Source: a virus. From it: 47,503 bases of DNA. Where the stretch lies: the IMG/VR virus record IMGVR_UViG_3300030061_003397, positions 1 through 47,503 of that record. One strand, given 5' to 3'. Below the pieces are notes generated by a model. The model ran no database searches. It saw nothing but the letters and a program-made list of their open reading frames with translations, and had not been told where the DNA came from. The translations under genes were made by a program, and so were the position numbers. Below, in pieces: positions 7,320 through 26,679 of this stretch (positions are counted from its first letter, which is position 1; each line of letters opens with the position of its first letter).

Positions 7320-7505
7320 ATGTCGTTTGAAGAAAACAAAAAGTCTTATATGGACTCTTTGTATGGAATTTCCACCTTGTTGAAAAGATGGCATACAGAG
7401 ATACATAAAAAAGATGTAACAAAGAATTACTTAATTAATCGCCTTGATAATTGGATTAGGAAACTCCAAGAATTAAGGCATGAAATAATGATGAGGAAAA
7501 GTTGA
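7320..7505 (+). CDS. Small helical protein, unknown
   Basis: A 61-residue basic, helical protein with Trp at residues 24 and 45 and a C-terminal RKLQELRHEIMMRKS helix. It starts 4 bases after the preceding stop and its TGA overlaps the ATG of the protease gene (TGATG), so it is within one tightly coupled translational unit. Position next to gp21 matches small prohead core proteins, but no family is recognised. Confidence 0.5.
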   Translation: MSFEENKKSYMDSLYGISTLLKRWHTEIHKKDVTKNYLINRLDNWIRKLQELRHEIMMRKS

Positions 7506-8116
7506 TGAAAGACTTAATAGTAGATTACATACCATTCGAAATTTCACCTGAACAGATAAACGAATCCATTTCACAAAATGGTGGTAAGTTAATAGTTCAT
7601 GGTGTACTACAAAGGGCTAACGCAAAAAACCAAAATGGTCGTGTGTATCCTCGTGAAATTTTAGAAAGAGAAAGTCAAAAGTACACAAAAGAATTTGTTG
7701 TACAAAAAAGGGCTTTAGGTGAGTTAGACCATCCTGATAGTTCTGTAGTAAATTTACAGAATGTATCCCACAATGTTACGGAAATGAATTGGGAAGGTAA
7801 TAACTTGGTTGGAACCGTTGAAGTTTTGGGAACACCAAGTGGTAATATATTGAAAGAATTATTTAAGGCTGGAATCAAACTTGGTATTAGTTCTCGTGGT
7901 ATGGGTTCCGTTGAACCTATGCAAGAAGGTGATGGACAACAAGTAGGACAAGACTTTGAATTAATTGCATTTGATTTTGTATCAAATCCTTCAACACACG
8001 GAGCTTTCTTATACCCTATGAAAGAAAGTGTTGGAAATGAAATACCAACAGGTAGAACTTGTGGTGAATATTGTAAAGTTGAAAGTATCATAAACGACAT
8101 AATCAGAGAGGGCTAA
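7505..8116 (+). CDS. 21: Prohead core maturation protease (gp21-like)
   Basis: This protease degrades the scaffold and trims capsid and internal proteins in the prohead before DNA packaging. The 203-residue protein carries RVYPREIL (46-53), GELDHPD with His76 (72-78), GISSRGMGS with candidate nucleophile Ser129/130 (127-135), and FDFVSNPSTHGAFLYPM near 155-171, as in the T4 gp21/S78-like family. Near its N-terminus is QINE20-S21, a possible self-cleavage site of the I-x-E type. I chose ATG 7505, overlapping the upstream stop, over the in-frame TTG at 7502. It is surrounded by proteins bearing possible gp21 cleavage sites. Confidence 0.93.
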   Translation: MKDLIVDYIPFEISPEQINESISQNGGKLIVHGVLQRANAKNQNGRVYPREILERESQKYTKEFVVQKRALGELDHPDSSVVNLQNVSHNVTEMNWEGNNLVGTVEVLGTPSGNILKELFKAGIKLGISSRGMGSVEPMQEGDGQQVGQDFELIAFDFVSNPSTHGAFLYPMKESVGNEIPTGRTCGEYCKVESIINDIIREG

Positions 8117-8520
8117 TGAAAAAATTAAAAGATTTAATAAAGGAAAGTAAGTATCTCGAAAGAGAATTTGGTGATGCATTACCCACATTAGATAGTGTGA
8201 TGAAACAACACCAAGATTCTAAAGAACCTATCAAAGAAATTTCAATACCTCAGTTTAAAAAATCAGATGATGTATCCTATTATTATAGAGATTGGGGAAA
8301 AATATTTGACAAGTTAGAGAGATTTGATGATTACGGCCCAAGAGAATCTGATATGTATGATTGGAATGATAGAAGTCTTTATGATAATGTAACGAAAGAA
8401 TTTCACTCACATATGGAAAAAATAGGAAAGAAACTCAATTCTGCAGTAAAGGACATGGAGAATTCTTATAAAGTATGGGATAAAATTTTAAAGAAATATC
8501 GTAGTAAAGACAGAACTTAA
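8116..8520 (+). CDS. Putative capsid-targeted internal protein with ~41-residue leader
   Basis: A 134-residue protein directly after gp21 (TAATG overlap). The N-terminus MKKLKDLIKE10-S11 has the form of a capsid-targeting sequence ending in an I-x-E site. Residues 18-33 (FGDALPTLDSVMKQHQ) match FGEPLPTLEDTMKAHQ in the protein at 12316, and both leaders end in a second site, here PIKE41-I42. The C-terminal domain differs: it is acidic/aromatic and helical (KSDDVSYYYRDWGKIFDKLE), with no known motif. I infer targeting into the prohead and removal of the leader by gp21, leaving a 93-residue mature protein. Confidence 0.55.
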   Translation: MKKLKDLIKESKYLEREFGDALPTLDSVMKQHQDSKEPIKEISIPQFKKSDDVSYYYRDWGKIFDKLERFDDYGPRESDMYDWNDRSLYDNVTKEFHSHMEKIGKKLNSAVKDMENSYKVWDKILKKYRSKDRT

Positions 8521-9886: not shown

Positions 9887-12316
9887 ATGGACGATTATAA
9901 TAAAAGAATGAAGGAGTGGATAACCAACATGGTTAGAGAAGAACTCCGTGAGGATGAGGAATGGTGGAATAAAAAGTCAGCTGCCCAACAGCAGGACTAC
10001 ATCAGACAACATCCACAATCTCAAAAGGCCATAGATGCTAAAAAAGAAAAAGAGGATGATAAATCAAAGGGAAAAGTATCAGAAAAACCAGGAGGAGCTT
10101 CCCATATAAAATCAACTGGTGGTAATAATGTATTACTTGCAAAAGGTACAAGAGAACATATAGCTAGACACAACAAACCAGGTGAAGGTTCTGTTTTCAG
10201 CGATAAAATTAGTATAGATGATGTTCAAGGTGCTATAGGTGAAATACCTGAAGAATTTTATGAAAAGGGTGGTGGAGTACATACCACAACAGTTCCAAAT
10301 GCTGGATTTAATTTAGTACAAAAGGCTTCTGATATTGAAAAGAACCATCCAAACGCGAAAAAAATTAAAGTTAAGAAACAGATTGGATATGATAGAGAAA
10401 AAAATAAACCAATTATGAAAGAAGTTGATGCTTATATTATTGATGCTGACAAAGAAGAATTTTCAACCGACCAATTAAATGTAATAGTTAGACCATCCAA
10501 TTCAGATTTTATGGATGATGAGTTAAAAAGTGATTCTGATGTTCAACAAGATTTAAAAGATGGGAAATCACATTCTGTACTTACTTCATTTCCTGGTGAC
10601 CCGGATGTTCCACCAGCTCAAAATTGGGAAGAAAGTGGTCATGCGATAATTATACCAAATGGTGGTAAAGATGCTGATAAATCAAATTGGGTTACAGAAT
10701 CCGTTGAGGAAACAAAGAAACGAGACTATAAAGCCGAATACAAGAAATTTCAATCTTCTACAAAGGCCAAAAAGTATAGAGCAGAATTAAATAAGTACAA
10801 TCGTAAGAAAGGTACTTATGGAAATGGTGATGGTAAAGATGCATCACACAAAGGGGGAAAGATAGTGGGATTCGAAGCACAATCTAAAAATAGAGGTAGA
10901 GCCGAAAAGAGTAGGTTAAAGAAAGAATCCTTTAAAGAAAATAAGGATAAGGTTAAAAAGTATCTCATTAGTAAAGGTGATACCGAAAAGGATGCTACAG
11001 AAAAACTTAAATACTATGATTACATCAAAAAAACCTACAAGGGTATAACCCCAGCAAGAATGGCAACAATAATGGGTCATCTAGCAAAGATGGAATCCGT
11101 AAATGAACGCACAAAGATGAGACCACAAGTCAAAAAACTTTTAAAACAAAAGGGATACAATCCTATTTTTGGTGCGATAGATAATTCCAAACGACAATTA
11201 AAACAGATGAGATACTCACGAGGTGAAATACAAGATACATTGATTAGTATGTTTGGTGATGAAGACCCAAAAATACTACAAAAAATTAAAGAATCTATAA
11301 ATGAGAAGAAAGGAGATTTCCTTGATTCTCTGTTTCCAAAATCAAAAGTCGATAAGGCAGTTAAGATAGCTCAATCAATGGGTGGTGATATGACTGGAGC
11401 AGTCAAGAAGATTGAGAAGTATTTCAAGGGAATATCATTACATTCCAAAGTTAAAGATGCACTTCAACAAGCTAATGAATCCATAAATGAAGAAATGTAT
11501 TTCGACCCTAAAAGTGAATTTAAGAAATATATGGATAAAGTTTTTAAACAATCCAAAATAAAAGTGATAAAATTTAATCGTATGAAACAAAGTTTTCATA
11601 ATGGTGCTTGGGGTGGATTCTATACAGTTAAGTCAAGTAATAAAGTAGACATAGGTGGTAAACCAGTCAAAAGAGGTTCAGCTGTTCTACCAGTATACAT
11701 TAGTAGAGTAGGTGAAATTGAGTTGGGAGTTAAAGCCGGTGGTTTTCATATAGGTAAAGTTGGTAGTTCACAAGTGGTAAAGAACCTAAAAGATTTTAAG
11801 AAAGGTGATTTAGATGAATCCGTAAATGAAGATGTATACGCTATCGTGGATAAATTCAACCAAAAGAAACAAGATTATGACCAAGTCTATTTCAAGGACA
11901 ATAACTTAAATAAAGTTAAGAAACATATGAAGAAGATGGGTAAGAAATATGGAAAAATGAATCTTATAAAAGTTAAAACCAATGGTAAGATGAATTTGGT
12001 AGAATCTGTTTCTAAGTCACAAGCTCAAGAAATAATGAGACAATTGGGTGGTAGAAAATTTGAAATGTTGATGGGTGTGAAATCTAAGGGTGTTGGTAAG
12101 GATGGATTGATTCTACACATTGGAAAAAACCCAAAAAGGATTTCTCATATAATTATTGATATCGATAGAGGAAAAGATTTATACAACTTGACATTTGGAA
12201 AGGTATACAAGTATCAATGGAAAGTTACTAAGAAACTCAAAGGTATATATGTAGACCAATTACATGATATGATTGAAAAGTATACTGGAAACCTTACTAC
12301 ATTTAGGAGTAGATAA
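9887..12316 (+). CDS. Modular polyprotein-like protein with repeated ES[VI]NE junctions
   Basis: A ~809-residue protein from ATG 9887, preceded by GAGGAAG at 5 bases; an in-frame GTG at 9866 would add 7 residues. Counting from 9866, ES[VI]NE occurs at residues 410-414, 476-480, 538-542 and 651-655, with variants ESVEE at 278-282 and ESVSK at 713-717. Each junction ends in V-N-E or I-N-E, the L/I-x-E form cut by T4-type prohead protease. Between them lie unrelated small modules: a long N-terminal acidic domain with an EWWNKKSAAQQQDYI opening, a degenerate HNH-like unit (DGKDASHKGGKIV), a unit with PKSKVDKAVKIAQSMGG, a beta unit (NGAWGGFYTVKSSNKVDIGG), and a C-terminal unit with IMRQLGGRKFEMLMG. 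I infer a head-cargo polyprotein. The enzymatic roles are unknown. Confidence 0.6.
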   Translation: MDDYNKRMKEWITNMVREELREDEEWWNKKSAAQQQDYIRQHPQSQKAIDAKKEKEDDKSKGKVSEKPGGASHIKSTGGNNVLLAKGTREHIARHNKPGEGSVFSDKISIDDVQGAIGEIPEEFYEKGGGVHTTTVPNAGFNLVQKASDIEKNHPNAKKIKVKKQIGYDREKNKPIMKEVDAYIIDADKEEFSTDQLNVIVRPSNSDFMDDELKSDSDVQQDLKDGKSHSVLTSFPGDPDVPPAQNWEESGHAIIIPNGGKDADKSNWVTESVEETKKRDYKAEYKKFQSSTKAKKYRAELNKYNRKKGTYGNGDGKDASHKGGKIVGFEAQSKNRGRAEKSRLKKESFKENKDKVKKYLISKGDTEKDATEKLKYYDYIKKTYKGITPARMATIMGHLAKMESVNERTKMRPQVKKLLKQKGYNPIFGAIDNSKRQLKQMRYSRGEIQDTLISMFGDEDPKILQKIKESINEKKGDFLDSLFPKSKVDKAVKIAQSMGGDMTGAVKKIEKYFKGISLHSKVKDALQQANESINEEMYFDPKSEFKKYMDKVFKQSKIKVIKFNRMKQSFHNGAWGGFYTVKSSNKVDIGGKPVKRGSAVLPVYISRVGEIELGVKAGGFHIGKVGSSQVVKNLKDFKKGDLDESVNEDVYAIVDKFNQKKQDYDQVYFKDNNLNKVKKHMKKMGKKYGKMNLIKVKTNGKMNLVESVSKSQAQEIMRQLGGRKFEMLMGVKSKGVGKDGLILHIGKNPKRISHIIIDIDRGKDLYNLTFGKVYKYQWKVTKKLKGIYVDQLHDMIEKYTGNLTTFRSR

Positions 12317-12837
12317 TGATTAAATTAAAAAAATTAATGACAGAATCCGTTTGGAACAGAAAGTTTGGTGAACCATTACCAACACTTGAAGATACAATGA
12401 AAGCCCATCAAAAGAAAACTATTACAGAAGGAACTCGTTGGTTGGTTGGTATTGAACAACCTAATGGTAAGATTACATCCACTTATGGTCATTACGATGG
12501 TTATCCTGAATGGGCAGGAAAACATTTAAAAAAGTATTATAACAATCCTGCAAAAGCAAAAGAATTATTAAAACTCGGTAAATCAGGAATTTCCACAATC
12601 GGCCCAAAAATAAAAGGGAATAAAGACCATTCCTTTGAAAAACCTAACAAGGGAGTTACCGTATTCTATGGTAGAGATAGAGGTGAAAAAGGTAGAATGA
12701 CGAGTAATTGGGGTAATAGAGACAAGGTAAAATTTGATAGTGGTGAGGAATACGCTTACATTTATAACCTCAAAGAAAAACAATGGTATTATAAATCACG
12801 ATACTCTAATCCACAGGATTGGACAGAGTTAAAATAA
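12316..12837 (+). CDS. Putative capsid-targeted protein, leader shared with the protein at 8116
   Basis: A 173-residue protein starting at the ATG overlapping the upstream stop. MIKLKKLMTE10-S11 is the short leader; FGEPLPTLEDTMKAHQ (17-32) matches the leader of the protein at 8116; TITE38-G39 is a second L/I-x-E site. The mature part would begin GTRWLVGIEQPNGKITSTYG, a module with HYDGYPEWAGKHLKKYY that I associate with small phage/bacterial proteins starting MGTRS. So a known free-standing module has had a 38-residue targeting leader placed in front of it. The C-terminal half contains aromatic beta strands (EYAYIYNLKEKQWYYK). Biochemical role unknown. Confidence 0.55.
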   Translation: MIKLKKLMTESVWNRKFGEPLPTLEDTMKAHQKKTITEGTRWLVGIEQPNGKITSTYGHYDGYPEWAGKHLKKYYNNPAKAKELLKLGKSGISTIGPKIKGNKDHSFEKPNKGVTVFYGRDRGEKGRMTSNWGNRDKVKFDSGEEYAYIYNLKEKQWYYKSRYSNPQDWTELK

Positions 12838-12840
12838 TAT

Positions 12841-13533
12841 ATGTTAAAACTTAAAGATTTACTGAACGAGAAAAAAGACCACGAGGGTTCCATGGCTAAA
12901 TCTCAACTTGAGAGAAGTCAAAAATACGCTATGATGATTTATAAAATCATTCAAAATGTTGATAAGGATGGTGATGGTGAGGTTGAATTTCCAGCTTGGG
13001 TACAATCAAAGTTAACTAAGTCTATGGATTATTTACAATCTGTATATAATTATTTGGATGGTAAGGATGGATTAGATGATAAGTTCCAAGATGAAGCCTC
13101 AACAACAGCTTATGTACCAGGATATCAAACACCTCTTGCTTTTAAAAAATCTACAAAATCTGCCATTGATTGGGACGATGAAGATGATGATGATGAAATA
13201 TTAGGTGGATTAAAAGATGTTAGGGGTAAAAGAGTAAAAAGATTTGGTGAGGTAAATACTTTACCATATAGTTCAAAAGAAGCAAAAATACATATAGATA
13301 ATGATATTAGAAAAATGTCAAAACATTTAGGTAAGGCTTCACAACAAGTTATAAAGATTATGATGGATGGTGTTAAGGGTGGTAAGTATGATGCTATGGA
13401 TATCACACGAGGTATTGAAACAGGCCAGTTAAACAGAACACACGAGGGAGAAAGACCCTTTATGAAAATGTTATGGAGAAAGGTTCGTGATGGGTTTAGA
13501 AGGTATTCAAAGGACAAAAAATTAAGAAAGTAG
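12841..13533 (+). CDS. Putative internal head protein with leader and GYxTPxAF motif
   Basis: A 230-residue protein. MLKLKDLLNE10-K11 is the shared leader. Residues 15-34 (EGSMAKSQLERSQKYAMMIY) plus PAWVQSKLTKSMDYLQSVYN (51-70) form a helical module I find familiar from T4-like phages. Between them is DKDGDGEVE (41-49), which fits the first nine positions of an EF-hand loop, but position 12 is Ala rather than Glu, so calcium binding is doubtful. QDE85-A86 and GYQTPLAF (94-101) repeat the motif of the protein at 6842. An Asp/Glu run (IDWDDEDDDDE) and a basic C-terminal helix follow. Probably processed by gp21 and located in the head; inferred. Confidence 0.55.
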   Translation: MLKLKDLLNEKKDHEGSMAKSQLERSQKYAMMIYKIIQNVDKDGDGEVEFPAWVQSKLTKSMDYLQSVYNYLDGKDGLDDKFQDEASTTAYVPGYQTPLAFKKSTKSAIDWDDEDDDDEILGGLKDVRGKRVKRFGEVNTLPYSSKEAKIHIDNDIRKMSKHLGKASQQVIKIMMDGVKGGKYDAMDITRGIETGQLNRTHEGERPFMKMLWRKVRDGFRRYSKDKKLRK

Positions 13534-13561: not shown

Positions 13562-14389
13562 ATGTCAAAAAAATTAAAAGATTTATTAAGTGAAGATATC
13601 ACAACTATGGGTGGTGTGGTTTCAAGACCGGCATTCACCAACTTAGATATGGGTTTTAGAACTCAAAAGTCTACTAAGTTGACTAACATTGTTGAGGATA
13701 TGTATGGTGATTCAAAACCTAAAATCAATGTAAAGGAATTTGTACAAGAAATTGGACAATACAATTCCTATGGTAATGAAATTTATCGTGAGGGTAATTT
13801 AAAAGAATTAGCGTCTAAACTTTCAAAACTTGCAGAAACAGCAAAACAGCATACCTTACAAGAAACCGAAGATTGGTTCGATAAAATCACAGTAAATCGT
13901 AACATGAAAGAATTAACTGGTCTCTCAAATCAATTTAAAAAAGTAGCTTCTGAAGCACAATCTCTCCAAGAAAGAATGTCTACTTTATATGAAGATATGG
14001 GACACATTCTTGGTCGTTATTATGAAATAAATGGTGATAAAGATGATAGTGATGAAGTAAAAGAAGAATTCAATGGTATGGTTCGTGAAGGTGAGTATGA
14101 AGAATTCTTTCAAGCAGCCATGAAAAAATTTGGTATAAGTTCACCTGATGAATTAGACGATGATAAGAAAAAAGAATTTTTTAATTATGTGGATGATAAC
14201 TATTCCGCTAAAAATGAGGGTGAAGCAGAAAATAAGAAAGCCCAAATATTAAGAAAGCAATTAGAACCATTAAGATTGAAGATAGCACAAATAGAAAATG
14301 AACCTTTTGGTGATAGAAAAACACGAGGTTTAAGGATGAAGAGGGATAAGATTAAACAACAAATTAGACAACTCACAGGAAAAGAGTAA
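13562..14389 (+). CDS. Putative capsid-targeted helical protein
   Basis: A 275-residue acidic, helical protein. MSKKLKDLLSE11-D12 is the shared leader. A central block with VNRNMKELTGLSNQFKKVAS and LYEDMGHILGRYYEI (about residues 119-160) is a module I recall as hypothetical in several T4-like phages. The C-terminal third is a Lys/Arg/Glu-rich helix (QLEPLRLKIAQIENEPFGDR). AGGAGAGACAAAATG gives a strong start. It lies upstream of bS21 and the scaffold gene. A head-interior location is inferred from the leader; no enzyme motif is visible. Confidence 0.55.
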   Translation: MSKKLKDLLSEDITTMGGVVSRPAFTNLDMGFRTQKSTKLTNIVEDMYGDSKPKINVKEFVQEIGQYNSYGNEIYREGNLKELASKLSKLAETAKQHTLQETEDWFDKITVNRNMKELTGLSNQFKKVASEAQSLQERMSTLYEDMGHILGRYYEINGDKDDSDEVKEEFNGMVREGEYEEFFQAAMKKFGISSPDELDDDKKKEFFNYVDDNYSAKNEGEAENKKAQILRKQLEPLRLKIAQIENEPFGDRKTRGLRMKRDKIKQQIRQLTGKE

Positions 14390-16109: not shown

Positions 16110-17741
16110 ATGAGTTCATTTGGAAAAATTGAAAAGCTCATGGATTCTTACGATCCTGTTCGTTCTCGTTTGGCAGAAACCCAAAAATTAGTTCAAAAGT
16201 GGGAACCCACTGGACTTCTTGAAGGTATTGAAGACAATAACAAGCAACACGGTATGGCCGTACTTCTTGAAAATCAAGCCCGTCAGTTAATTGATGAATC
16301 ATCAAAAACTGGTGGTAGTGGTTCAGAAGAATGGAGTGGTGTTGCATTACCATTGGTTCGTAGAATCTTTGGTGAGTTAGCGGCTCAAGACTTTGTTAGT
16401 GTTCAACCTATGAACCTACCAAGTGGTCTAATTTTCTATCTTGACTTCAAGTATGGAACTGCACAAACAGCGAACCATAATAAAGGTGAACATATACATG
16501 GTAACACCTCAGCTTCAAGTGATGCAAGCGGTGGTTTATATGGTGCTGGTAAATTCGGATACTCTATCAATGATAATGTATCTAGCACTATTGTAAACTC
16601 AAACATCACAGAAGCATCTGCTTCTTGGAAAGAAGTAGAATTCGAACCAGACCTATCTGCATCTATTGCTACTACAGCAGCAGACCAGATAATCAAACTG
16701 ACTGTCACAAGGTCTAATTTCATAGCAGCTGCACCTAATGCAGATTTGAACGGAATTAGAGCTTTCGAAGTTAGTGGTTCTGATATCTCAGCTCACTATC
16801 CTGCTTACTCTTATTTCGACGCAGACAATGTGTATTTCTATGTGAAATCTACAGAAGGTCGTATGGACGCAGCTGGAATTGGTGTGAAATATCACAAGCA
16901 ACCTACTGAAGCTGTCAGAGGTGATTTCGAACAAAGTACATTTACAACACCTGCACCAAATAGTGCTGATGATGTGGATATTCCTGAAATCGATATCGCA
17001 CTTAGACAGATTTCTATTGTTGCGAAAACTCGTAAACTTAAAGCAGTATGGACTCCTGAGTTAGCTCAAGACCTTAACGCTTACCATTCTGTTGACGCAG
17101 AAGCTGAATTGACTTCTATGTTAAGTGAGTACATTTCAATGGAAATTGATTTGGAAATACTTGACCTATTAAAGTCTGAAGCTAACGCTAAGACTGAGTA
17201 CTGGTCAGCAAAGGTTGGATATGAGTTTGATTCAGTAACTTCCTTATTCTCTGAAGTTTCTGGTAATTCAAATGCTTACACAAAAGGAACTTGGTTCCAA
17301 ACACTTGGAAACAAACTACAAGCTGTAAGTAACGCGATACATCAGAAGACTCTAAGAGGTGGTGCTAATTTCATTGTTGTTTCACCTGAAACTGCAACTG
17401 TAATTGAATCCATACCTGGATACGCTGCTGATACTGATGGTAACGCAACTAACACATCATACGCAATGGGTGTACAGAAAGTTGGAGCATTGAATAACAG
17501 ATATACGGTTTATAAGAACCCTTATATGTTAGAAAATGATATCCTACTTGGTTTCAGAGGAAGTAATTTCTTAGAAACTGGAGCAGTATACGCACCGTAT
17601 GTTCCGTTAATCATGACTCCTCTTGTTTACGATCCTGTTAATTTCACTCCTCGTAAGGGTGTAATGACAAGATACGCGAAGAAGATGGTAAGACCTGAAT
17701 TCTACGGAAAAGTTGTTGTCGCAGACATCAACATGGTTTAA
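16110..17741 (+). CDS. 23: Major capsid protein (gp23-like)
   Basis: A 543-residue HK97-fold shell protein. The N-terminal propeptide should be removed by gp21; QLIDE63-S64 fits the L/I-x-E rule and lies where T4 gp23 is cut (after Glu65). Downstream, VALPLVRRIFGELAAQDFVS and VQPMNLPSGLIFYLDFKYG are the T4-type capsid signature near residues 77-115. The C-terminal part has FIVVSPETATVIESIPGY and the conserved end YAPYVPLIMTPLVYDPVNF. TTGGAG precedes the ATG. Ordered and terminated as expected for a highly expressed gene: scaffold, capsid, then a strong terminator. No separate gp24 vertex gene is seen here. Confidence 0.96.
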   Translation: MSSFGKIEKLMDSYDPVRSRLAETQKLVQKWEPTGLLEGIEDNNKQHGMAVLLENQARQLIDESSKTGGSGSEEWSGVALPLVRRIFGELAAQDFVSVQPMNLPSGLIFYLDFKYGTAQTANHNKGEHIHGNTSASSDASGGLYGAGKFGYSINDNVSSTIVNSNITEASASWKEVEFEPDLSASIATTAADQIIKLTVTRSNFIAAAPNADLNGIRAFEVSGSDISAHYPAYSYFDADNVYFYVKSTEGRMDAAGIGVKYHKQPTEAVRGDFEQSTFTTPAPNSADDVDIPEIDIALRQISIVAKTRKLKAVWTPELAQDLNAYHSVDAEAELTSMLSEYISMEIDLEILDLLKSEANAKTEYWSAKVGYEFDSVTSLFSEVSGNSNAYTKGTWFQTLGNKLQAVSNAIHQKTLRGGANFIVVSPETATVIESIPGYAADTDGNATNTSYAMGVQKVGALNNRYTVYKNPYMLENDILLGFRGSNFLETGAVYAPYVPLIMTPLVYDPVNFTPRKGVMTRYAKKMVRPEFYGKVVVADINMV

Positions 17742-19034: not shown

Positions 19035-19520
19035 ATGGCTGGTCGTTTTTTACCCCAAAGAGATAGAAATTTCTTAGAGAGAATCAACAAGGAGTTGGTT
19101 GGTGACCTTCGAACTGAAAACGAAGGAATAATCAATCAAAAAATTGTTATTTATAAGATTTCTGCCTATGATACCTCAACAAATATGTATGGAGAGGCCG
19201 TAGGTGGTAAAAACTTTAAACAAGGGGTTCAATTAGCGTGTATTGTAGAAGCACAAGACTTTGATTACAATACCGATGAATTTGGGCCAGATGCACAACA
19301 AGATTCTCAATTTCATATACTAAGACAGACGCTTTTAGACTTAAGTTTGACACCAGAGATTGGTGATATTGTAGAATGGAACTATGGATTTTTTGAAGTC
19401 AATGGGGTGTTAGAAAATCAATTGATTGGTGGAATGCAAGAGAATAATTGGAGTGTTACATTAAATGCACATTTATCTCGTCAATCATTTACAAACCAAA
19501 CAAGAATTAGGAGTATTTAG
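19035..19520 (+). CDS. 14: Neck protein, gp14-like
   Basis: A 161-residue protein 4 bases after the gp13-like stop. The features LTPEIGDIVEWNYGFFEVNG and VLENQLIGGM (about 116-145), and IYKISAYDTSTNMYGEAVGG (39-58), are those of gp14 neck proteins, where a P-E-x-G-D-I-x-x-W strand followed by F/Y-E-V and ENQL is conserved. With gp13 and gp15-like proteins it would form the head-tail joint. It is shorter than T4 gp14 (256 residues). Its TAG overlaps the next gene's start. Confidence 0.72.
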   Translation: MAGRFLPQRDRNFLERINKELVGDLRTENEGIINQKIVIYKISAYDTSTNMYGEAVGGKNFKQGVQLACIVEAQDFDYNTDEFGPDAQQDSQFHILRQTLLDLSLTPEIGDIVEWNYGFFEVNGVLENQLIGGMQENNWSVTLNAHLSRQSFTNQTRIRSI

Positions 19521-21043
19521 TGGCTGAAATTATAACATCACGAAAGAAACCTCAACCAAGAAGTACTCGTGGTAAACTAAATAGAGCAAGACAATATAAA
19601 GTTACTGAAGGTCAACCAAAAGACATATCAGTAACATTAATGGACATGGATAGTGCTATAATGTACTATTTTGAAAATGTTATCAAACCAACCGTATTCG
19701 AAAATGGTGAAACCGTAAAGGTTCCTACTATGTATGCATCACCAGAGAGGTGGCACTCAATACAAAAAACAGGATTTATGAGAGATTCCAAACGGCAACT
19801 TATCTTACCTGTTATAGCATTCAGAAGAACTGGTATGGAAAAAGATGATACGATAGCAGTTGATAAAATTGACCCATTAGACCCAAAATTATTTTACACA
19901 TTTGAAAGAAAATTTACTGATAATAACAGATACGATAATTTTTCAGTTCAACAAGGAATAGTTCCTCAGAGAGAATATTACAATGTTGCCGTACCTGACT
20001 ATATGGTATTGAATTATGATTTCATCATCTTTACCCATTACATAGAACAGATGAATAGATTGGTTGAGAGGATAAATTGGTCAGCTGGTAGTTATTGGGG
20101 TGAACCAGGTAAGATGAGGTTTAAAACCAACATCGAAAGTTACACAGATTCAACAGAATTAGCTGACAGAGATAGGGTTGTAAAAACAGAATTTAGTGTT
20201 AGTTTAAAAGGATACTTGATACCTGATTCATTCAATGAACTTCAAGGTCCTCATACCATGCAAAAATACTTAACTCCTAAAAAGTTAATTATTGGAGCAG
20301 AAACTGATTTAAGTGTGGCAAGTATCGTTCAAACTCCTGATGATGGTACAAATGTTACATTGACTACACAACGACAAGGTAGTGGAGCAAGTAATCTTTC
20401 CAACAAACATATTGTAAATGAAGGTAACGGAATTACCATAACAAATACTGGTATAGGATTTGATGGGGCAAATGAATTGATACAAACTTTTAGTCTTGAT
20501 GAAAGTTTTAGTCCTACTTTTGCAAATATAACCACAACTGGTAACATTACATCTGAGGGTGATATTATAGCAGTTGGTAATGTGATAGCAAAAAACTATA
20601 TAGTGAGTTCTTCGGTAACTCATATGACTCAATCATTCAGTAGTGGTTCAACCATATTTGGTGATTCGGTATCTGATACTCACCAATTTACTGGTTCGGT
20701 TAGTGTAAATGGTTCATTGGAAGTAAATGGTTCTGCTATAGGGTCAAGTGTAACAACATTCGACACTTACATCAGAAAAACATTTGTAAAAAAGGCTTCG
20801 AGTATACTTAATAACTCAACTGCTAGTTTTTCAGCCGTTACCGCGTCCGCACCAAGTGGGTTGTCATCAACTAACGAAGATGATTTTGTATTTTTTCTAA
20901 ATGGTCAATACATGGAACATGATGCATTAACAATTGAACAATCAAATGGTTCAACATTTTTACTTAAAGTGGATACCGATAGTATAGGGTACTTTTTAGA
21001 AAGTGATGATGAGATAATAGCACAAGGAAAATTTAATGCTTAA
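19520..21043 (+). CDS. 15: Tail completion/sheath stabiliser, gp15-like, with fibre-type C-terminal extension
   Basis: A 507-residue protein starting at GTG 19520. Residues about 55-265 match the gp15-like pattern: VKVPTMYASPERWHSIQ, a Leu-Pro-x-Ile strand, YDFIIFTHYIEQMNRLVERI and VVKTEFSVSLKGYLIP. T4 gp15 is a hexameric terminator at the top of the tail. After this domain the protein continues for ~240 residues into beta-rich sequence. Residues 375-393 (SGSTIFGDS to FTGS) are a fibre-cassette module repeated in the tail-fibre gene at 22489. T4 gp15 (272 residues) lacks this, so the extension may anchor collar or whisker-like structures. The end overlaps the HAD gene by 8 bases. Confidence 0.75.
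   Translation: MAEIITSRKKPQPRSTRGKLNRARQYKVTEGQPKDISVTLMDMDSAIMYYFENVIKPTVFENGETVKVPTMYASPERWHSIQKTGFMRDSKRQLILPVIAFRRTGMEKDDTIAVDKIDPLDPKLFYTFERKFTDNNRYDNFSVQQGIVPQREYYNVAVPDYMVLNYDFIIFTHYIEQMNRLVERINWSAGSYWGEPGKMRFKTNIESYTDSTELADRDRVVKTEFSVSLKGYLIPDSFNELQGPHTMQKYLTPKKLIIGAETDLSVASIVQTPDDGTNVTLTTQRQGSGASNLSNKHIVNEGNGITITNTGIGFDGANELIQTFSLDESFSPTFANITTTGNITSEGDIIAVGNVIAKNYIVSSSVTHMTQSFSSGSTIFGDSVSDTHQFTGSVSVNGSLEVNGSAIGSSVTTFDTYIRKTFVKKASSILNNSTASFSAVTASAPSGLSSTNEDDFVFFLNGQYMEHDALTIEQSNGSTFLLKVDTDSIGYFLESDDEIIAQGKFNA
20642..20698 (+). repeat. 57-bp fibre module, copy 1 (second copy 23425-23481)
   Basis: This segment of the gp15-like gene and bases 23425-23481 of the fibre gene encode nearly the same 19 residues, beginning SGSTIFGDS and ending DTHQFTGS, with silent differences. 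A weaker third relative (TILGNAVTDTHNI) is at about 27259-27300. Shared modules between a tail-completion protein and a fibre suggest recombination or a common trimeric fold. Confidence 0.7.
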
Positions 21044-21560
21044 GTTGGTAGATTTACTAACGGAGAAAAAACTTAGGGTATTTGATTTCGATGATACATT
21101 AGTTAAATCTAACTCTAAAGTATATGTGATTAATAAAGGTAAAAAGAAAACCCTAACACCTGGTCAGTTTGCAATATATAAACAAAAGTCAGGTGATGAG
21201 TTTGACTTTTCTGATTTTGATAAGGTGATTGAACCTAAACAGATTAAATCAATGTTTAAGGTATTTAAAAATATCTATAAGGCAAGTGGTAGTAGGAGAT
21301 TAACAATATTAACAGCACGGGCAGCTTATAAACCTGTAAGGCAGTTCTTAAAAGATGTCGGATTTAACGATGTTTATGTCGTTGCATTAGGAGATGCTAA
21401 CCCACAAAAGAAATCAAATTGGGTAAAGAGTCAGATAGAAAAGGGATATGATGATATATTATTCTTAGATGATTCACCAAAAAATGTAAACGCTGTAAAA
21501 AAATTAAAACAAAAATATCCAAATATTAAGATGGATGCAAGGGTGGTCAAATATGATTAA
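21036..21560 (+). CDS. HAD-superfamily phosphatase-like enzyme with capsid-targeting-like leader
   Basis: A 174-residue protein. HAD motif I is VFDFDDTLV (Asp17 nucleophile, Asp19), motif II is LTAR in the segment RRLTILTARAAYKPVRQF, motif III is probably the Lys in NPQKKSNWVK, and motif IV is ILFLDDSPKN. So all catalytic elements for phosphoryl transfer are present; the substrate is unknown. The N-terminus MLKLVDLLTE10-K11 is the leader seen on head-associated proteins near gp21, and a cut after Glu10 would leave the first HAD beta strand intact. The ATG overlaps the stop of the gp15-like gene (ATGCTTAA), with AAGGA upstream. Its end overlaps the PAP2 gene. Confidence 0.8.
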   Translation: MLKLVDLLTEKKLRVFDFDDTLVKSNSKVYVINKGKKKTLTPGQFAIYKQKSGDEFDFSDFDKVIEPKQIKSMFKVFKNIYKASGSRRLTILTARAAYKPVRQFLKDVGFNDVYVVALGDANPQKKSNWVKSQIEKGYDDILFLDDSPKNVNAVKKLKQKYPNIKMDARVVKYD

Positions 21561-22182
21561 ATTAAAAGAATTGTTAAAATTAGATGAGATGGTATTTTCT
21601 GATACTATTAAAGAAAGACACAATAAGAGGATGAAAAGAGAACTCGTTCATATTAGTGAGCCTATGGTTCCTCACAATCCACCACCAGATAATAGTAGTA
21701 AAGAAACATTAAAAGAATTACATTGGTTGTTGGACTACAATAATGGTAAAATATCAAATAGTGTTGTTATGAAAGGTGATGACATAAAAAAAGTATTTAA
21801 AAAGTATTGTGATGAAAGTAATTTAGAATATCCAAAAGAATATATTAAAGAGTTACTTAAGGATAGTGGTAAAATAATATATAAACTAAAGTATAAATAC
21901 AACAGACCACGACCATTTCAATTAGGTGAATTTTATAACATACCTGATTTCAAAATACATAATTTAGATAGTGCTAAAACTCCATCTTATCCAAGTGGTC
22001 ATTCCACACAAGGTATTTTACTTGGAAAAGTATTTGGAAAAAAATATCCACATCACAAAAAAAAGTTTATGGAGATTGGAAAAATGATAAGTAATTCGAG
22101 ATTAATGGCAAGAGCACACTATCCAAGTGATACCGAGTTTGGTGAAAAACTTGGTGAATTACTTTTCATAAACTTAAAATAA
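21553..22182 (+). CDS. PAP2-type acid phosphatase-like enzyme with capsid-targeting-like leader
   Basis: A 209-residue protein from ATG 21553, which overlaps the HAD stop (ATGATTAA); an in-frame ATG at 21535 is less likely. All three PAP2 motifs are present: K111-x6-R118-P119 (KLKYKYNRP), PSGH (147-150), and S182-R-x5-H189-x3-D193 (SRLMARAHYPSD). These histidines carry out phosphoryl transfer in class A acid phosphatases and lipid phosphatases. There is no signal peptide or membrane segment, so a soluble enzyme is expected. The N-terminus MIKLKELLKLDE12 resembles the shared leader. Substrate unknown: nucleotides, phospholipid head groups or phosphate salvage are all possible. Confidence 0.82.
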   Translation: MIKLKELLKLDEMVFSDTIKERHNKRMKRELVHISEPMVPHNPPPDNSSKETLKELHWLLDYNNGKISNSVVMKGDDIKKVFKKYCDESNLEYPKEYIKELLKDSGKIIYKLKYKYNRPRPFQLGEFYNIPDFKIHNLDSAKTPSYPSGHSTQGILLGKVFGKKYPHHKKKFMEIGKMISNSRLMARAHYPSDTEFGEKLGELLFINLK

Positions 22183-22228: not shown

Positions 22229-22501
22229 ATGAGAAAACGCCATTGGAATAACCGAAAAAATAGGCCTTGTCCTGATTGTGGTAAGATGTTAACCTACACA
22301 AGAAAGGATAGTTTCGATAGGGCGGTTGGTAATAATTCTGTTTGTAAGTCGTGTGCTCAAACCGATAGAAAAGTTACATTGGAAACTATTGAAAAAATGA
22401 AACAACCTAAGACTATTCAACATAAGAAAAAGATTTCAAAGTCAATTACTAATTGGTGGGAAGAACGAAAAGATGATAGAGAGAGTAAATGGCTAAGTTA
22501 G
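22229..22501 (+). CDS. Zinc-ribbon/NUMOD-like small protein
   Basis: A 90-residue basic protein. CPDC (14 residues in) and CKSC about 25 residues later form a likely four-Cys zinc site. After that, TLETIEKMKQPKTIQHKKKI with a SKSITNWWEE end looks like a NUMOD3-type DNA-binding helix found in homing endonucleases. No nuclease domain (HNH or GIY-YIG) is present, so this may be a remnant or a stand-alone DNA-binding protein. No ribosome binding site is seen; the end overlaps the fibre gene by 13 bases. The call is moderate at best. Confidence 0.45.
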   Translation: MRKRHWNNRKNRPCPDCGKMLTYTRKDSFDRAVGNNSVCKSCAQTDRKVTLETIEKMKQPKTIQHKKKISKSITNWWEERKDDRESKWLS

Positions 22502-25500
22502 GATTAAAACAATTAGATAGTATCCTATCGGGTTCATTACAAGTTTCTGGTAGTTCAGGTGTTACTGGTTCTCTGTCCATTACTGATAATATTAGTGTTG
22601 GACAATATATCTATCATAAAGATGATGCCAACACTTTTATTAATCTTACAGATGATAGACTTAGATTTAATATTGGTGGTATATCATACATAGATTTAAA
22701 CGATGCAGGTGCTGCTCCACACGATATTACATTCAATGATGGTGGTAATGATGTAGATTTTATCATAAAAGGTGATACTAATAATCCTTTATTTAAAACT
22801 GATTCTTCTACAAATAGAATAGGAACACATGGTAAAGGCTCACCAGAAGTCGCTTTCCATATAGGTGGTTCTGAATTAAGGGTTGATGGGGATATAAGTG
22901 GTTCATCAACTGGAACTGGTTCGTTTGGTCATGTGTATGTTTCTGGTTCAACTCTTTCTGTAGCTGGTGGAAGTTTAATATTAGGAGAAGAAGCATATTC
23001 TGTAGGTGCTAATTATGTAGGACTAAAAACTTCCTTCCATACAGGTTCAAATGATTATATGATAATATCTGGTAAATCAGATGGAAGTACTTACATATCT
23101 GCTAAAGATAATAGTGGTGTTGAAATTAGAGGCGGTGGTAATAGGTCTACTAATTCAATTATAGTACCTGATGATACATTTATTAAACTTGGTGGTAGTG
23201 CTACTACTTTATTGAGACCTGAAGATGATAATACGATAGATTTAGGTTCTTCCGCAAAACGATTCAAAGACCTCGTTTTGTCTGGTCATGTAACTGCTAG
23301 TGGAAACATAAGTGGTTCATCAACTTCAACTGGTTCGTTTGGTGAACTGATAGTTGCGGGAAATATAACAGCACAACAATATATAATATCTTCATCAGTA
23401 ACACAATTAACCACATTACAACGGAGTGGTTCAACAATATTCGGTGACTCAACTGATGATACACACCAATTTACAGGTTCAATTCTAATTAATAATGGTA
23501 CAATAAGTGGGTCACAATATTCTACGGGTTCATTTGGAAAACTAATTGGTGATGGTAGTGAAATAACTGGTATTACATCAGTTACTTCGGAGTCTATACA
23601 AAATTTAAGGGTTGGTATCGTAAGTGGTAGTGAGCAAGTATCATATGATGGAAACCGAAGGGTTTTAAATACCGACTTAGGAGATTTATTCGATAATAAT
23701 TTTAATCCTGGTACAAGTGGAAGTGTAGTTGATTTTCTAAATGCCGTATTTTATCCAAATACTCCACCAAGTATTTCAGGTAGTGAGTTCGACCTCAATG
23801 AGTTCGAAGTTAGTGGTTCATCCGTTGGTACGATAACAGCAACAGATTCGGAAGCACTTGCAAGTGAAATATCTTTTGCCGCACAGAGTGGATATAGTGA
23901 TAACTTTTTTAAGATTCATAGTGGTAGTGGGGTAATATCCTTAAATACAATGTCAACTGCTAGTATGAATACTACGGAAAGACCAAGTGATTCTGCACAA
24001 GCTCATCCATTTTTAGTTCAAGTAAGTGATAATATCACAACTTCTCAGGCAACAATTTTTATACGAGTAATACCAAATACAGCACCAAAATTTAGAACTT
24101 CAAGTGTTGGTGGTACAGTAATTACTGCCAATACTGGTAGTGTAAATGAAAATACAAGTGCTGGGACAACCGTATTGACAATGTTTGTGACAGATGATGA
24201 ATCAGATTCAATCACATTGTCACCGATGAGTCAAAGTGCAAACAATCACTTTAGTTCAAGCTTTACCGACATATCAGGTGGAAAACAATTATTATTAAAA
24301 ACCAACACAGGTAGTTTTGATTTTGAATCAATAAGTTCATATAATTTAGCCATAAGTGCATCAGACCAACATTTCGGTAGTACACAAAGTTCAAGTGCAT
24401 TTATTACAACTCTACCAATATTAGTTAATGTGACTAATAACCAAGCACCAACAATGGCAAGTCAAGTTTTTTCAATGAATGAAAGAAGTGGTAGTTTTCC
24501 TGATATTGGTTTGGGTTCAAATACTAATTCCGTAACAACAGTCGGAACCGTAACCACAAATGATAATGAGGGTGATACGGTAACTTTTACAGCACTTACA
24601 TTGGCAAGTGGTAGTGGTGGTGGAAATACAGCTCAGAGTGACCCAAGTAATAGTCCATTCCAAATTACAAGTGCTGGAGTACTACAATTAAAGGCAGGTC
24701 AATTTTTAAATGCAGATGTTTTTGATAGTTATCAATATCAAGCAACATATAAAGATAATTTTAATGACGCAAGTTCAAGTGGTGTACTCACGGTAAATAT
24801 AACTGATGATGTAATACCAAGTATAACAACTAATGTGAGTGGTAATAGTTTTCATATAATTGAAAGTGCACTGAGTGGTTCAAGTATCCGTCAAGGTACA
24901 AATGGTAGAACAGGAACTGTAGCAGATATAGGTTCAAATCAAACCGTATTATTTAATATAACTCCAAGTGGTTCACTTCCATCCAAAACAAAAGATAGTG
25001 GTTCTTTAGGTATCAGTTCGGTAGGTAATTTGTCCGTAGCATTCGATGTAAGTAGTTCAAGCTACAATTCCGATGTTGGAAATGTTGTTTCGGGTAGTGT
25101 GACCGTAACAAATGCTTTTGGAACAACCAATACTACAAATATAAATGTTAGTATGAGTATTAATAACGCACCAACACCTTCATTCAGTAATACAAGTGCT
25201 AATTTAAATACAAATGGAGCAAGACCAAGTAATACATTAACCACTATATCATTTAGTGATACGGAAAGTGATACATTAAACCATGATACATTTACATTCA
25301 CAGACCCAAGTGGTCAATTAAATACTTTAAAAGATGGTGATACCTATTTAGTTAGGGCGACCACAAACTTGAGTGGTTCAACAGACTATGAAATGACGGC
25401 CTCAATCAAGGACGAACATGGGTTCAGAACAGGAACTACAAAACACGAAATAACAATAGCAATGGCACCGATTGGTTCATTAACCACAAACGGAACATTT

Positions 25501-26679
25501 AGAATAATAGAAAGTGCTACAAATGGTAATAACATTGTTACAAATGCTAATGGTAGGACAGGAACTCAAGGAGATTTGGGTGTAACATATTCACCACAAC
25601 TAAATTCTGCAGCAGTAGCGTCATTCACATCGTCAAATTCAGATATTAATGTAAGTTCAACTGGAGCTTTAACATTAGGATTTAACCTTAGTGGAAGTGT
25701 TAGTAAGAGTGGTGATACATTAGGTTCCACAATTACATACAGAGACCAATACGACAATATCGGTAGTGGAAGTGTTACAATTAATGTCGTGACGAATAAC
25801 GCACCAAGTATATCATTTACACCAAGTAGTGTTACTTTGGCAGCTGAAAATGCAATTAGTGGTTCATTTGTAACAAGTGCGAGTTTTAGTGATACTGAAA
25901 GTGATGATATGCAGTTTGATACTTTTTCATTAACTGGTACACATGGTGATTTATTCAGTTCCCATCGTGTTGGTGATTCTGTTTTGATAAGAACAAATAC
26001 AGACTTATCAGCAAGTAGTTATTCCTTTAGTGCACATATTAATGATGAACATGGATTCAACGCCGCAACAAGTTCGTTGAGTATAACCGTAACACCTATG
26101 ATTTATTTTTATAAAAATACAAATGTATTAGTATTGGATGGTAGTGAATCGACCGCTATAACCCAACTTGGAGATAGTGGTGGTGATGATAGTGGAATCA
26201 CAAGTGGTTCATTTATGGGACATTTAAAGGTAGGAAATATCGGAGATGCAACAATTACCAATGCCGATGGTAAACAAATGATATTGGTAGCATCACAAAG
26301 TGTGAATCACTTAGCAAGTTCAGGAAGTGGTCATTCTACCGTAAGACAATTTGGTAATATTAATTTAAGTGGTAATAGTGATAATGGACATCAATTTATA
26401 CTATTGTATCCATCATCATCTCAAGTATTTCAAAAACCTGCAAGTTTAAGAGCTGGATTAGGTGGTAGTACGGTAAAAGAATTTACAGTATTTAATGATA
26501 ATGCATCAAGTGACCAAGCCGTAACTGCTGGTTTACATTACTTCGGAACCGATGCTGGAGTCAAGGTATTTGGTAACGATAGTTGGGGAATGATATTCGC
26601 TCTTGATGCAAGTACAAACCCAACACAATTCTATCATTTATTAAGTTCGAGTGGTTCAGCACCATCGAGTGAGGTATAG
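22489..26679 (+). CDS. Large tail fibre/appendage protein with cadherin-like repeats
   Basis: A 1396-residue Ser/Thr/Gly/Asn-rich protein. The N-terminal ~400 residues are short beta repeats of the type ISGSSTGTGSFG, including the SGSTIFGDS module shared with the gp15-like protein. From about residue 424 there is a series of ~100-residue beta domains, each opening with N-x-A-P or N-T-P-P (about 424, 530, 650, 892, 1103) and holding D-x-E/D-S-D motifs such as TDDESDSITL, which resembles cadherin/Calx-beta-type Ca-binding repeats. The C-terminal ~200 residues form a distinct domain and may carry receptor binding. There is no S74 chaperone here. Probable role: adhesion to the host surface. Confidence 0.75.
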   Translation: MAKLGLKQLDSILSGSLQVSGSSGVTGSLSITDNISVGQYIYHKDDANTFINLTDDRLRFNIGGISYIDLNDAGAAPHDITFNDGGNDVDFIIKGDTNNPLFKTDSSTNRIGTHGKGSPEVAFHIGGSELRVDGDISGSSTGTGSFGHVYVSGSTLSVAGGSLILGEEAYSVGANYVGLKTSFHTGSNDYMIISGKSDGSTYISAKDNSGVEIRGGGNRSTNSIIVPDDTFIKLGGSATTLLRPEDDNTIDLGSSAKRFKDLVLSGHVTASGNISGSSTSTGSFGELIVAGNITAQQYIISSSVTQLTTLQRSGSTIFGDSTDDTHQFTGSILINNGTISGSQYSTGSFGKLIGDGSEITGITSVTSESIQNLRVGIVSGSEQVSYDGNRRVLNTDLGDLFDNNFNPGTSGSVVDFLNAVFYPNTPPSISGSEFDLNEFEVSGSSVGTITATDSEALASEISFAAQSGYSDNFFKIHSGSGVISLNTMSTASMNTTERPSDSAQAHPFLVQVSDNITTSQATIFIRVIPNTAPKFRTSSVGGTVITANTGSVNENTSAGTTVLTMFVTDDESDSITLSPMSQSANNHFSSSFTDISGGKQLLLKTNTGSFDFESISSYNLAISASDQHFGSTQSSSAFITTLPILVNVTNNQAPTMASQVFSMNERSGSFPDIGLGSNTNSVTTVGTVTTNDNEGDTVTFTALTLASGSGGGNTAQSDPSNSPFQITSAGVLQLKAGQFLNADVFDSYQYQATYKDNFNDASSSGVLTVNITDDVIPSITTNVSGNSFHIIESALSGSSIRQGTNGRTGTVADIGSNQTVLFNITPSGSLPSKTKDSGSLGISSVGNLSVAFDVSSSSYNSDVGNVVSGSVTVTNAFGTTNTTNINVSMSINNAPTPSFSNTSANLNTNGARPSNTLTTISFSDTESDTLNHDTFTFTDPSGQLNTLKDGDTYLVRATTNLSGSTDYEMTASIKDEHGFRTGTTKHEITIAMAPIGSLTTNGTFRIIESATNGNNIVTNANGRTGTQGDLGVTYSPQLNSAAVASFTSSNSDINVSSTGALTLGFNLSGSVSKSGDTLGSTITYRDQYDNIGSGSVTINVVTNNAPSISFTPSSVTLAAENAISGSFVTSASFSDTESDDMQFDTFSLTGTHGDLFSSHRVGDSVLIRTNTDLSASSYSFSAHINDEHGFNAATSSLSITVTPMIYFYKNTNVLVLDGSESTAITQLGDSGGDDSGITSGSFMGHLKVGNIGDATITNADGKQMILVASQSVNHLASSGSGHSTVRQFGNINLSGNSDNGHQFILLYPSSSQVFQKPASLRAGLGGSTVKEFTVFNDNASSDQAVTAGLHYFGTDAGVKVFGNDSWGMIFALDASTNPTQFYHLLSSSGSAPSSEV

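Follow-up and report, generated by a model that had tools for sequence, protein, structure and literature searches.

A T4-type capsid-targeting leader proposed for HAD and PAP2 phosphatase-like proteins of an uncultured Far-T4-type phage

INTRODUCTION

The internal proteins of bacteriophage T4 are a diverse cargo that has only a capsid-targeting sequence (CTS) in common (PMC3012670, PMC9026906). For the internal protein IPIII, 10 residues suffice, of which positions 4 and 7 act in targeting and positions 8 and 10 in processing; the protease gp21 cleaves T4 leaders after L/I-x-E, and an aspartate at position 10 prevents processing yet leaves targeting intact (PMC9026906). The ADP-ribosyltransferase Alt is likewise carried in the head and injected, and its propeptide is cut by gp21 (PMC9026906). 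Enzymes predicted to enter the cell together with DNA are also known among the polyvalent proteins of phages and conjugative elements (PMC5512222), and in phage RNA repair, polynucleotide kinases are known to work together with HAD phosphatases (PMC7824862).

Here we analyzed a stretch of viral DNA of 47,503 nt (IMG/VR record IMGVR_UViG_3300030061_003397, hereafter the window), in which two overlapping genes for a HAD-type and a PAP2-type phosphatase-like protein lie within the tail region and share an N-terminal leader. Among open-licence papers, we found no literature report of this leader in Far-T4 phages.

RESULTS

Structural genes and phage lineage

Profile matches to T4 head and tail genes identified the window as the structural module of a T4-superfamily myovirus. 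The terminase gene starts at position 2501, the gene of the portal protein gp20 at 4085 and that of the tail sheath at 30997. A prohead core protein serine protease of the S77/gp21-like type, which is the predicted leader cutter, is encoded at 7502..8116 (plus strand; Pfam E 1.5e-29; PHROG 207, head maturation protease, E 2e-53), and the major capsid protein gp23 at 16110..17741 (plus strand; Pfam E 3e-75). The latter contains a candidate maturation site, G-L-L-E|G, and this GLLEG is kept across its relatives. Because gp23 was closest to proteins of uncultured phages, Microcystis phage Mel-JY01 and Flavobacterium phage immuto, and then of RM378, it falls in the Far-T4 neighbourhood, and on this affiliation we class the virus as an uncultured T4-like phage of the Far-T4 type. 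Aquatic members of this group have been connected with hosts among the Bacteroidetes (PMC4360716, PMC7198788). The window also contains, at 1399-1647, an apparently truncated 82-residue ORF with a KLDGQN nucleotidyltransferase-like motif and the N-terminus LLNE|GGAYGHM.

The HAD gene and its leader

The first of the two genes (21036..21560, plus strand) encodes a HAD-superfamily phosphatase-like protein of 174 aa with an N-terminal leader, as judged from its motifs, a structural model and a match to PHROG 415. Motifs I (D17-F-D19-D-T), II (T93), III (K126) and IV (D145-D146) were all invariant among 34 relatives, and the motif set of HAD-superfamily phosphatases (DxDxT, T/S, K, DD) is thus present in full, as had been read from the sequence alone. 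The protein begins MLKLVDLLTE|KKLRVFDFDDT, in which the bar marks the place, behind codon 10, where the prohead protease is predicted to cut (L-T-E|K; leader at 21036..21065, plus strand), assigned from positions 4, 7, 8 and 10 of the T4 CTS. In the AlphaFold2 model (pLDDT 86.7), leader residues 1-10 are poorly ordered (mean 54) and beta 1 comprises residues 11-17, so that it begins directly after the predicted cut; the arrangement is even tighter than the distance of five residues between cut and catalytic strand that had been proposed earlier. A direct sequence comparison with solved structures gave no convincing match, and in reference phages there was no annotated homologue and only one unannotated huge phage that has one.

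T4 IPII and IPIII begin with MKTYQEFIAE|A. The leader MLKLVDLLTE|K has the same length, agrees with it at positions 4, 7, 8 and 10, and carries an acidic residue at position 6 as in T4. Both proteins of the window start with M-[IL]-K-L-x-[DE]-L-L, and both have hydrophobic residues at positions 4, 7 and 8 of an N-terminus of ~10 residues. The L/I-x-E at positions 8-10 is present in the HAD protein (LTE|K) and invariant in its closest relatives (class A, see below), and the S77 (gp21) protease at 7502-8116 is encoded by the same phage.

The PAP2 gene

The second gene (21553..22182, plus strand) encodes a soluble PAP2/class A acid-phosphatase-like protein of 209 aa, as indicated by Pfam PAP2, a PDB profile and a structural model. 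Whereas the coordinates of the pair otherwise hold, the start of this gene is ATG 21553 and not ATG 21535, which gives the longest ORF; we rejected the latter, since its six extra residues lie inside the HAD gene and homologues begin with M-[IL]-K-L-K at 21553. The motifs K113-X6-R120-P121, P147-S-G-H150 and S182-R-X5-H189-X3-D193 were invariant in 19 relatives, which confirms that the PAP2 motifs are complete. The Pfam PAP2 match (E 6e-10) lies above the curated cut-off, profile comparison with acid phosphatases of the PDB gave E-values down to 6e-17 (7f17), and the AlphaFold2 model (pLDDT 93.8) has the all-helical soluble acid-phosphatase fold, with Z up to 17.1 against PDB acid phosphatases (2.7 A over 176 residues). 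Motifs and soluble fold are therefore both those of class A acid phosphatases, and motif and model together place the protein in the soluble acid-phosphatase branch. At the N-terminus there is a charged leader, MIKLKELLKLDE, in place of a hydrophobic signal peptide; we therefore filed the protein in the PAP2 superfamily with a class A-like fold and not as a secreted class A enzyme. A lipid phosphatase was also considered and rejected, because the membrane PAP2 enzymes (5jki, PgpB, LPP1) scored below soluble acid phosphatases and no transmembrane stretches were seen by eye.

That both genes begin with the leader is accurate in full for the HAD protein and in part for PAP2, the N-terminus of which (MIKLKELLKLDEMVF) contains the targeting half, MIKLKELL (21553..21576, plus strand), without E at position 10. 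Among PAP2 relatives the targeting half is kept and E10 is not, position 10 being mostly L, as in the window protein. A possible alternative site, L-D-E at 10-12, is present in the window, and an L/I-x-E at these positions was otherwise found only in L001, L089, L091 and L005; the PAP2 of L021 has a canonical INE at 8-10. Lacking the L/I-x-E at residues 8-10, the window protein was not filed as a processed member of the system, only as a carrier of its targeting half. Because D at position 10 in T4 stops processing and not targeting, a PAP2 protein that is targeted yet uncut is plausible by analogy. The leader helix was modelled with fair confidence (pLDDT 82) and could thus belong to the fold, which counts against the reading of PAP2 as cargo. 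Part of the larger PAP2 set was obtained with leader-containing patterns, which biases it in this respect; four loci found without such patterns carry the leader too.

Distribution of the leader

In 16 related loci, the strict form of the leader occurred at 42 of 302 gene starts compared with 2 of 2400 internal start codons, and hence exceeds chance; these loci were picked because HAD or PAP2 is present in them, and they include near relatives, so that the 14% is not a genome average. The strict form was represented by 40 distinct genes from 20 loci. K3, L4 and E10 are invariant in these but were required by the search pattern, whereas D or E at position 6, which the pattern did not require, is present in 31/40; position 9 is free. 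The leucine codons of the leader vary among the 40 genes (TTA, CTA, TTG, CTT, CTC and CTG), which argues that the constraint acts on the protein.

Four further genes of the window, all on the plus strand, carry the leader, and all sit between the protease and gp23: MKKLKDLIKE|S (8116..8520), adjoining the protease; MIKLKKLMTE|S (12316..12837); MLKLKDLLNE|K (12841..13533); and MSKKLKDLLSE|D (13562..14389), upstream of a probable scaffold gene. Elsewhere, leader genes encode NUDIX and Zeta/AAA_33 kinase proteins, and one ART-PolyVal and one zincin were indicated by weak matches only. The former of these weak matches concerns a gene of L107 (1602-2246), two genes upstream of a leader-bearing HAD, and echoes T4 Alt.

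Other N-termini were noted in passing. In the cultured Flavobacterium phage immuto, gp087 (L106, 2958-3557), annotated as a 5'-3' deoxyribonucleotidase, has the leader-like start MKKVMGNLADLLLE|ES. A second recurrent N-terminus, MKITKTQLREMIREELLNE, is found on several adjacent small genes of L019 (7783-9563) and may be another targeting tag. Three neighbouring genes of L103 (9800-11061), a phage with a distant PAP2 relative, bear a leader of another type, MKKVKLFEEFISE. The string 'FGKVY' was considered as a second leader and rejected, since it lies inside a few other leader proteins and is not a common N-terminal leader.

HAD relatives and their genomic settings

HAD relatives were sought with leader-free patterns, which yielded 561 sequences, of which 80 were kept. 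The closest of them (class A, ~59-91% identity) all have M/V-I/L-K-L...E before the enzyme. The class A gene occurs in at least seven genomic settings, and the leader is present in every one; the names of neighbours given here are sequence readings, only some of which were tested. It is found in the tail slot (window, L001, L003 and L025), beside RuvC-like and gp47-like genes (L004, L008 and L009), following a poly(A)-polymerase-like gene (L007 and L010), following baseplate-like genes (L011), next to core genes (L013), within arrays of leader genes (L014 and L019), and next to genes for small membrane proteins that precede replication genes (L020 and L021).

Two more distant HAD sets have other N-termini, one an extension of ~35 residues that ends in [ILVM]-x-E and the other mostly M-I-A-R-S-L-F-T-E. 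Across the distinct HAD N-termini, hydrophobic-x-E lies within 8-14 residues of FDFDDT in 61/61. The phages of the distant sets have gp23 proteins that are 59-64% identical, and S77 proteases where found; their HAD genes neighbour glycosyltransferase, APS-kinase-like, IscU-like and ferredoxin-like genes. It had been stated beforehand that leaderless homologues in metabolic clusters would speak against delivery, and this applies in part, since distant HADs without this leader do lie near glycosyltransferase and metabolic genes; they retain hydrophobic-x-E just before the enzyme. For these distant relatives, delivery is no more than a possibility. A leader common to whole genomes of the distant groups was looked for in two large phage genomes and rejected: class A leaders head only a few of their genes and no other gene has the leader of the HAD, and a general leader swap is therefore not proposed. 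The giant HAD proteins of L110-L115 gave no Pfam PolyVal match. On a Flavobacteriaceae contig with cellular-looking neighbours, a leaderless HAD homologue starts with MKVKKLRVFDFDDT, almost exactly at the predicted cut, and is one natural control.

The cargo slot and its junctions

As had been described, the two genes lie between a gp15-like tail sheath stabilizer gene (19520..21043, plus strand; Pfam T4-gp15_tss E 7e-6) and a very large, repetitive cadherin/fibre-like gene (22489-26679). Comparison with relatives delimits a slot between the gp15-like gene (sometimes with a fibre-like gene) on the left and a zinc-ribbon gene (22229..22501, plus strand) on the right, the latter border being kept in L001, L003, L025, L083 and L090-L092. 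The slot holds HAD and PAP2 in the window, L001 and L003, PAP2 alone in L083 and L091, PAP2 with further leader genes in L090 and L092, and NUDIX and HAD among leader genes in L025. A slot with variable leader-bearing genes explains the position in the tail region without a tail function. The zinc-ribbon gene, which flanks the slot in all tail-slot relatives, shows CxxC and a NUMOD-like tail by eye without a Pfam match, and may be part of a homing-type element.

An obligate pair of HAD and PAP2 was rejected, since no HAD gene adjoins PAP2 in L083 and L089-L097, and L004 and L007-L011 have HAD but lack PAP2. The earlier term 'pair' was too strong, as only some genomes have the two genes side by side and others have them apart.

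Each of the two genes is joined to its predecessor by an overlap of 8 nt of the form ATG(A/C)TTAA, where the start codon of the second gene overlaps the stop codon of the first: ATGCTTAA (21036..21043, plus strand) for HAD and the gp15-like gene, and ATGATTAA (21553..21560, plus strand) for PAP2 and HAD. Such 8-base overlaps precede 22/66 leader genes compared with 7 of at least 288 others, an enrichment that suggests exchange at gene junctions.

Possible enzymatic functions

The HAD protein matched PHROG 415, 'polynucleotide kinase', with E 6e-8, and its sequence resembled T4 Pnkp (PseT) weakly (hhalign probability 28%). Its fold neighbours were tied (Nir2, Z 9.8; T4 Pnkp phosphatase, Z 9.7; MDP-1, Z 9.4), and together with the PHROG match they are not decisive for an end-healing enzyme. 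The company of kinases is a stronger clue to function. A leader-bearing Zeta/AAA_33-type kinase is encoded directly upstream of HAD in L008 and L009. In L113 and L114, both Aliivibrio MAG contigs, the HAD cap beta-hairpin of proteins of >1300-2190 residues contains an inserted P-loop kinase that belongs to this family and matches PHROG 505 polynucleotide kinase at 2e-13. We therefore regard a nucleic-acid end-healing phosphatase, working with a separate or fused P-loop kinase, as a candidate function for HAD that is tentatively held, at about one chance in three; PAP2 might tentatively be a broad phosphomonoesterase. The substrates suggested by the sequence-only reading, (p)ppGpp, lipids or scavenged phosphate, gained no specific support, as PAP2 is nearer to soluble class A enzymes than to lipid phosphatases and HAD is linked to polynucleotide kinase/phosphatase. 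The leader-family P-loop kinase of L014 (near 1797-2450), L015 and L016 has an apparent intein-like block in Walker A, ...NNNHNYYVGKSEVNVHN|SGKT.

DISCUSSION

We propose, with a probability of roughly two in three, that HAD and PAP2 are cargo of a T4-type capsid-targeting system. The leader M-[IL]-K-L-K-[DE]-L-L-x-E would bind the assembling prohead core, and the protein would thereby be drawn into the head. The S77 prohead protease would then remove the HAD leader by a cut after E10 (L-x-E|), so that the mature enzyme begins with its first beta-strand, while PAP2 would be drawn in by the same targeting residues and would probably retain its leader in most relatives. Both proteins would be packaged with the DNA, probably enter the host at infection and act there before phage transcription; more tentatively, HAD may take phosphate off nucleic-acid ends together with a separately encoded or fused P-loop kinase. 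The place in the tail region would be a slot for cassettes, with gain and loss of leader-bearing genes. Judged from sequence, we consider packaging likely and injection probable. The proposal that the hydrolases are delivered with the DNA is accordingly well supported for HAD, by the CTS anatomy, the S77 protease, the leader kept throughout class A and the leaderless bacterial homologue; it is weaker for PAP2, in which the cut site is not kept.

Other explanations of the leader can be weighed against these observations. The leader might target the core, but the proteins could function within the capsid, in assembly or head maturation, and not as host effectors. The four other leader genes of the window would fit this, since core genes of the T4 type would be expected at their location between protease and gp23; however, the intact catalytic motifs of HAD and PAP2, the variable slot and the NUDIX and kinase enzymes among the other leader genes make such a role unlikely. 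The distant HADs that adjoin glycosyltransferase, APS-kinase-like, IscU-like and ferredoxin-like genes could instead point to ordinary, late-expressed intracellular phosphatases of nucleotide or phosphate metabolism, whose shared N-terminus goes back to duplication or cassette recombination and plays no part in targeting; the 8-nt start/stop overlaps, which suggest recombination at the leader, are compatible with this. Yet unrelated proteins keep the leader with synonymous codon variation, the functional positions of the T4 CTS are matched and the bacterial HAD homologue does without it, and we regard this explanation as quite unlikely.

A leader as short and amphipathic as this one, kept by PAP2 without the cut residue, might also be an amphipathic helix for binding to a membrane or protein complex, unrelated to the head. 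The invariant E10 with a free position 9 in the HAD set and the L-L-E|G of gp23 point to the prohead protease instead, and a helix of this kind appears very improbable.

If HAD and PAP2 are indeed capsid-targeted cargo, the leader would mark injected proteins in a way that can be read from sequence, in an uncultured phage lineage that is widespread, and injected effectors could be listed from metagenomes alone. The T4-type internal proteins, so far small inhibitors and one ADP-ribosyltransferase, would come to include phosphatases, kinases and NUDIX proteins, among them candidate immediate-early counter-defence enzymes; the tagged phosphatases suggest that such viruses bring enzymes besides DNA into the infected cell. 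A broader and more speculative picture, which we think doubtful as a whole, is that Far-T4-type phages of aquatic bacteria use plug-in cargo, with one ten-residue tag on about one gene in ten, or more, of the sampled regions and with arrays of tagged enzymes, including a split end-healing kinase and phosphatase acting at entry, that are swapped via start/stop-overlapping cassettes.

The described systems each share part of this arrangement. T4 IPI, IPII and IPIII have the same 10-residue leader with positions 4, 7, 8 and 10, the L/I-x-E cut and an S77 protease, but the T4 cargo consists of a handful of small proteins, among them the nuclease inhibitor IPI*, together with Alt, whereas the window phage and its relatives have a different leader sequence on many genes, including those predicted to encode phosphatases, NUDIX and kinase proteins. 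Compared with T4 Alt, the enzyme classes are others, the ADP-ribosyltransferase match being weak and confined to one leader gene of L107. Polynucleotide kinase-phosphatases such as T4 PseT and phage HAD end-healing enzymes share with the HAD protein its fold neighbours, the PHROG 415 label and the association with a P-loop kinase; however, sequence similarity to PseT is weak, and the kinase is separate, or cap-inserted in relatives, and not N-terminal as in T4. The class A acid phosphatases (PhoN, PhoC and the E. blattae enzyme) have the same full K-X6-RP/PSGH/SR-X5-H-X3-D motif and soluble all-helical fold as PAP2, which differs from them in a phage leader in place of the secretion signal and in an identity of ~20%. 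With polyvalent proteins the leader proteins share the predicted co-entry with DNA, and some weakly match PolyVal domains, but here there is one enzyme per short leader-bearing chain in place of giant multidomain chains; HAD (174 aa) and PAP2 (209 aa) are single-domain proteins and so fall outside the multidomain polyvalent type. The principle is thus known from T4, and what is new is a lineage-specific leader and an enzymatic cargo.
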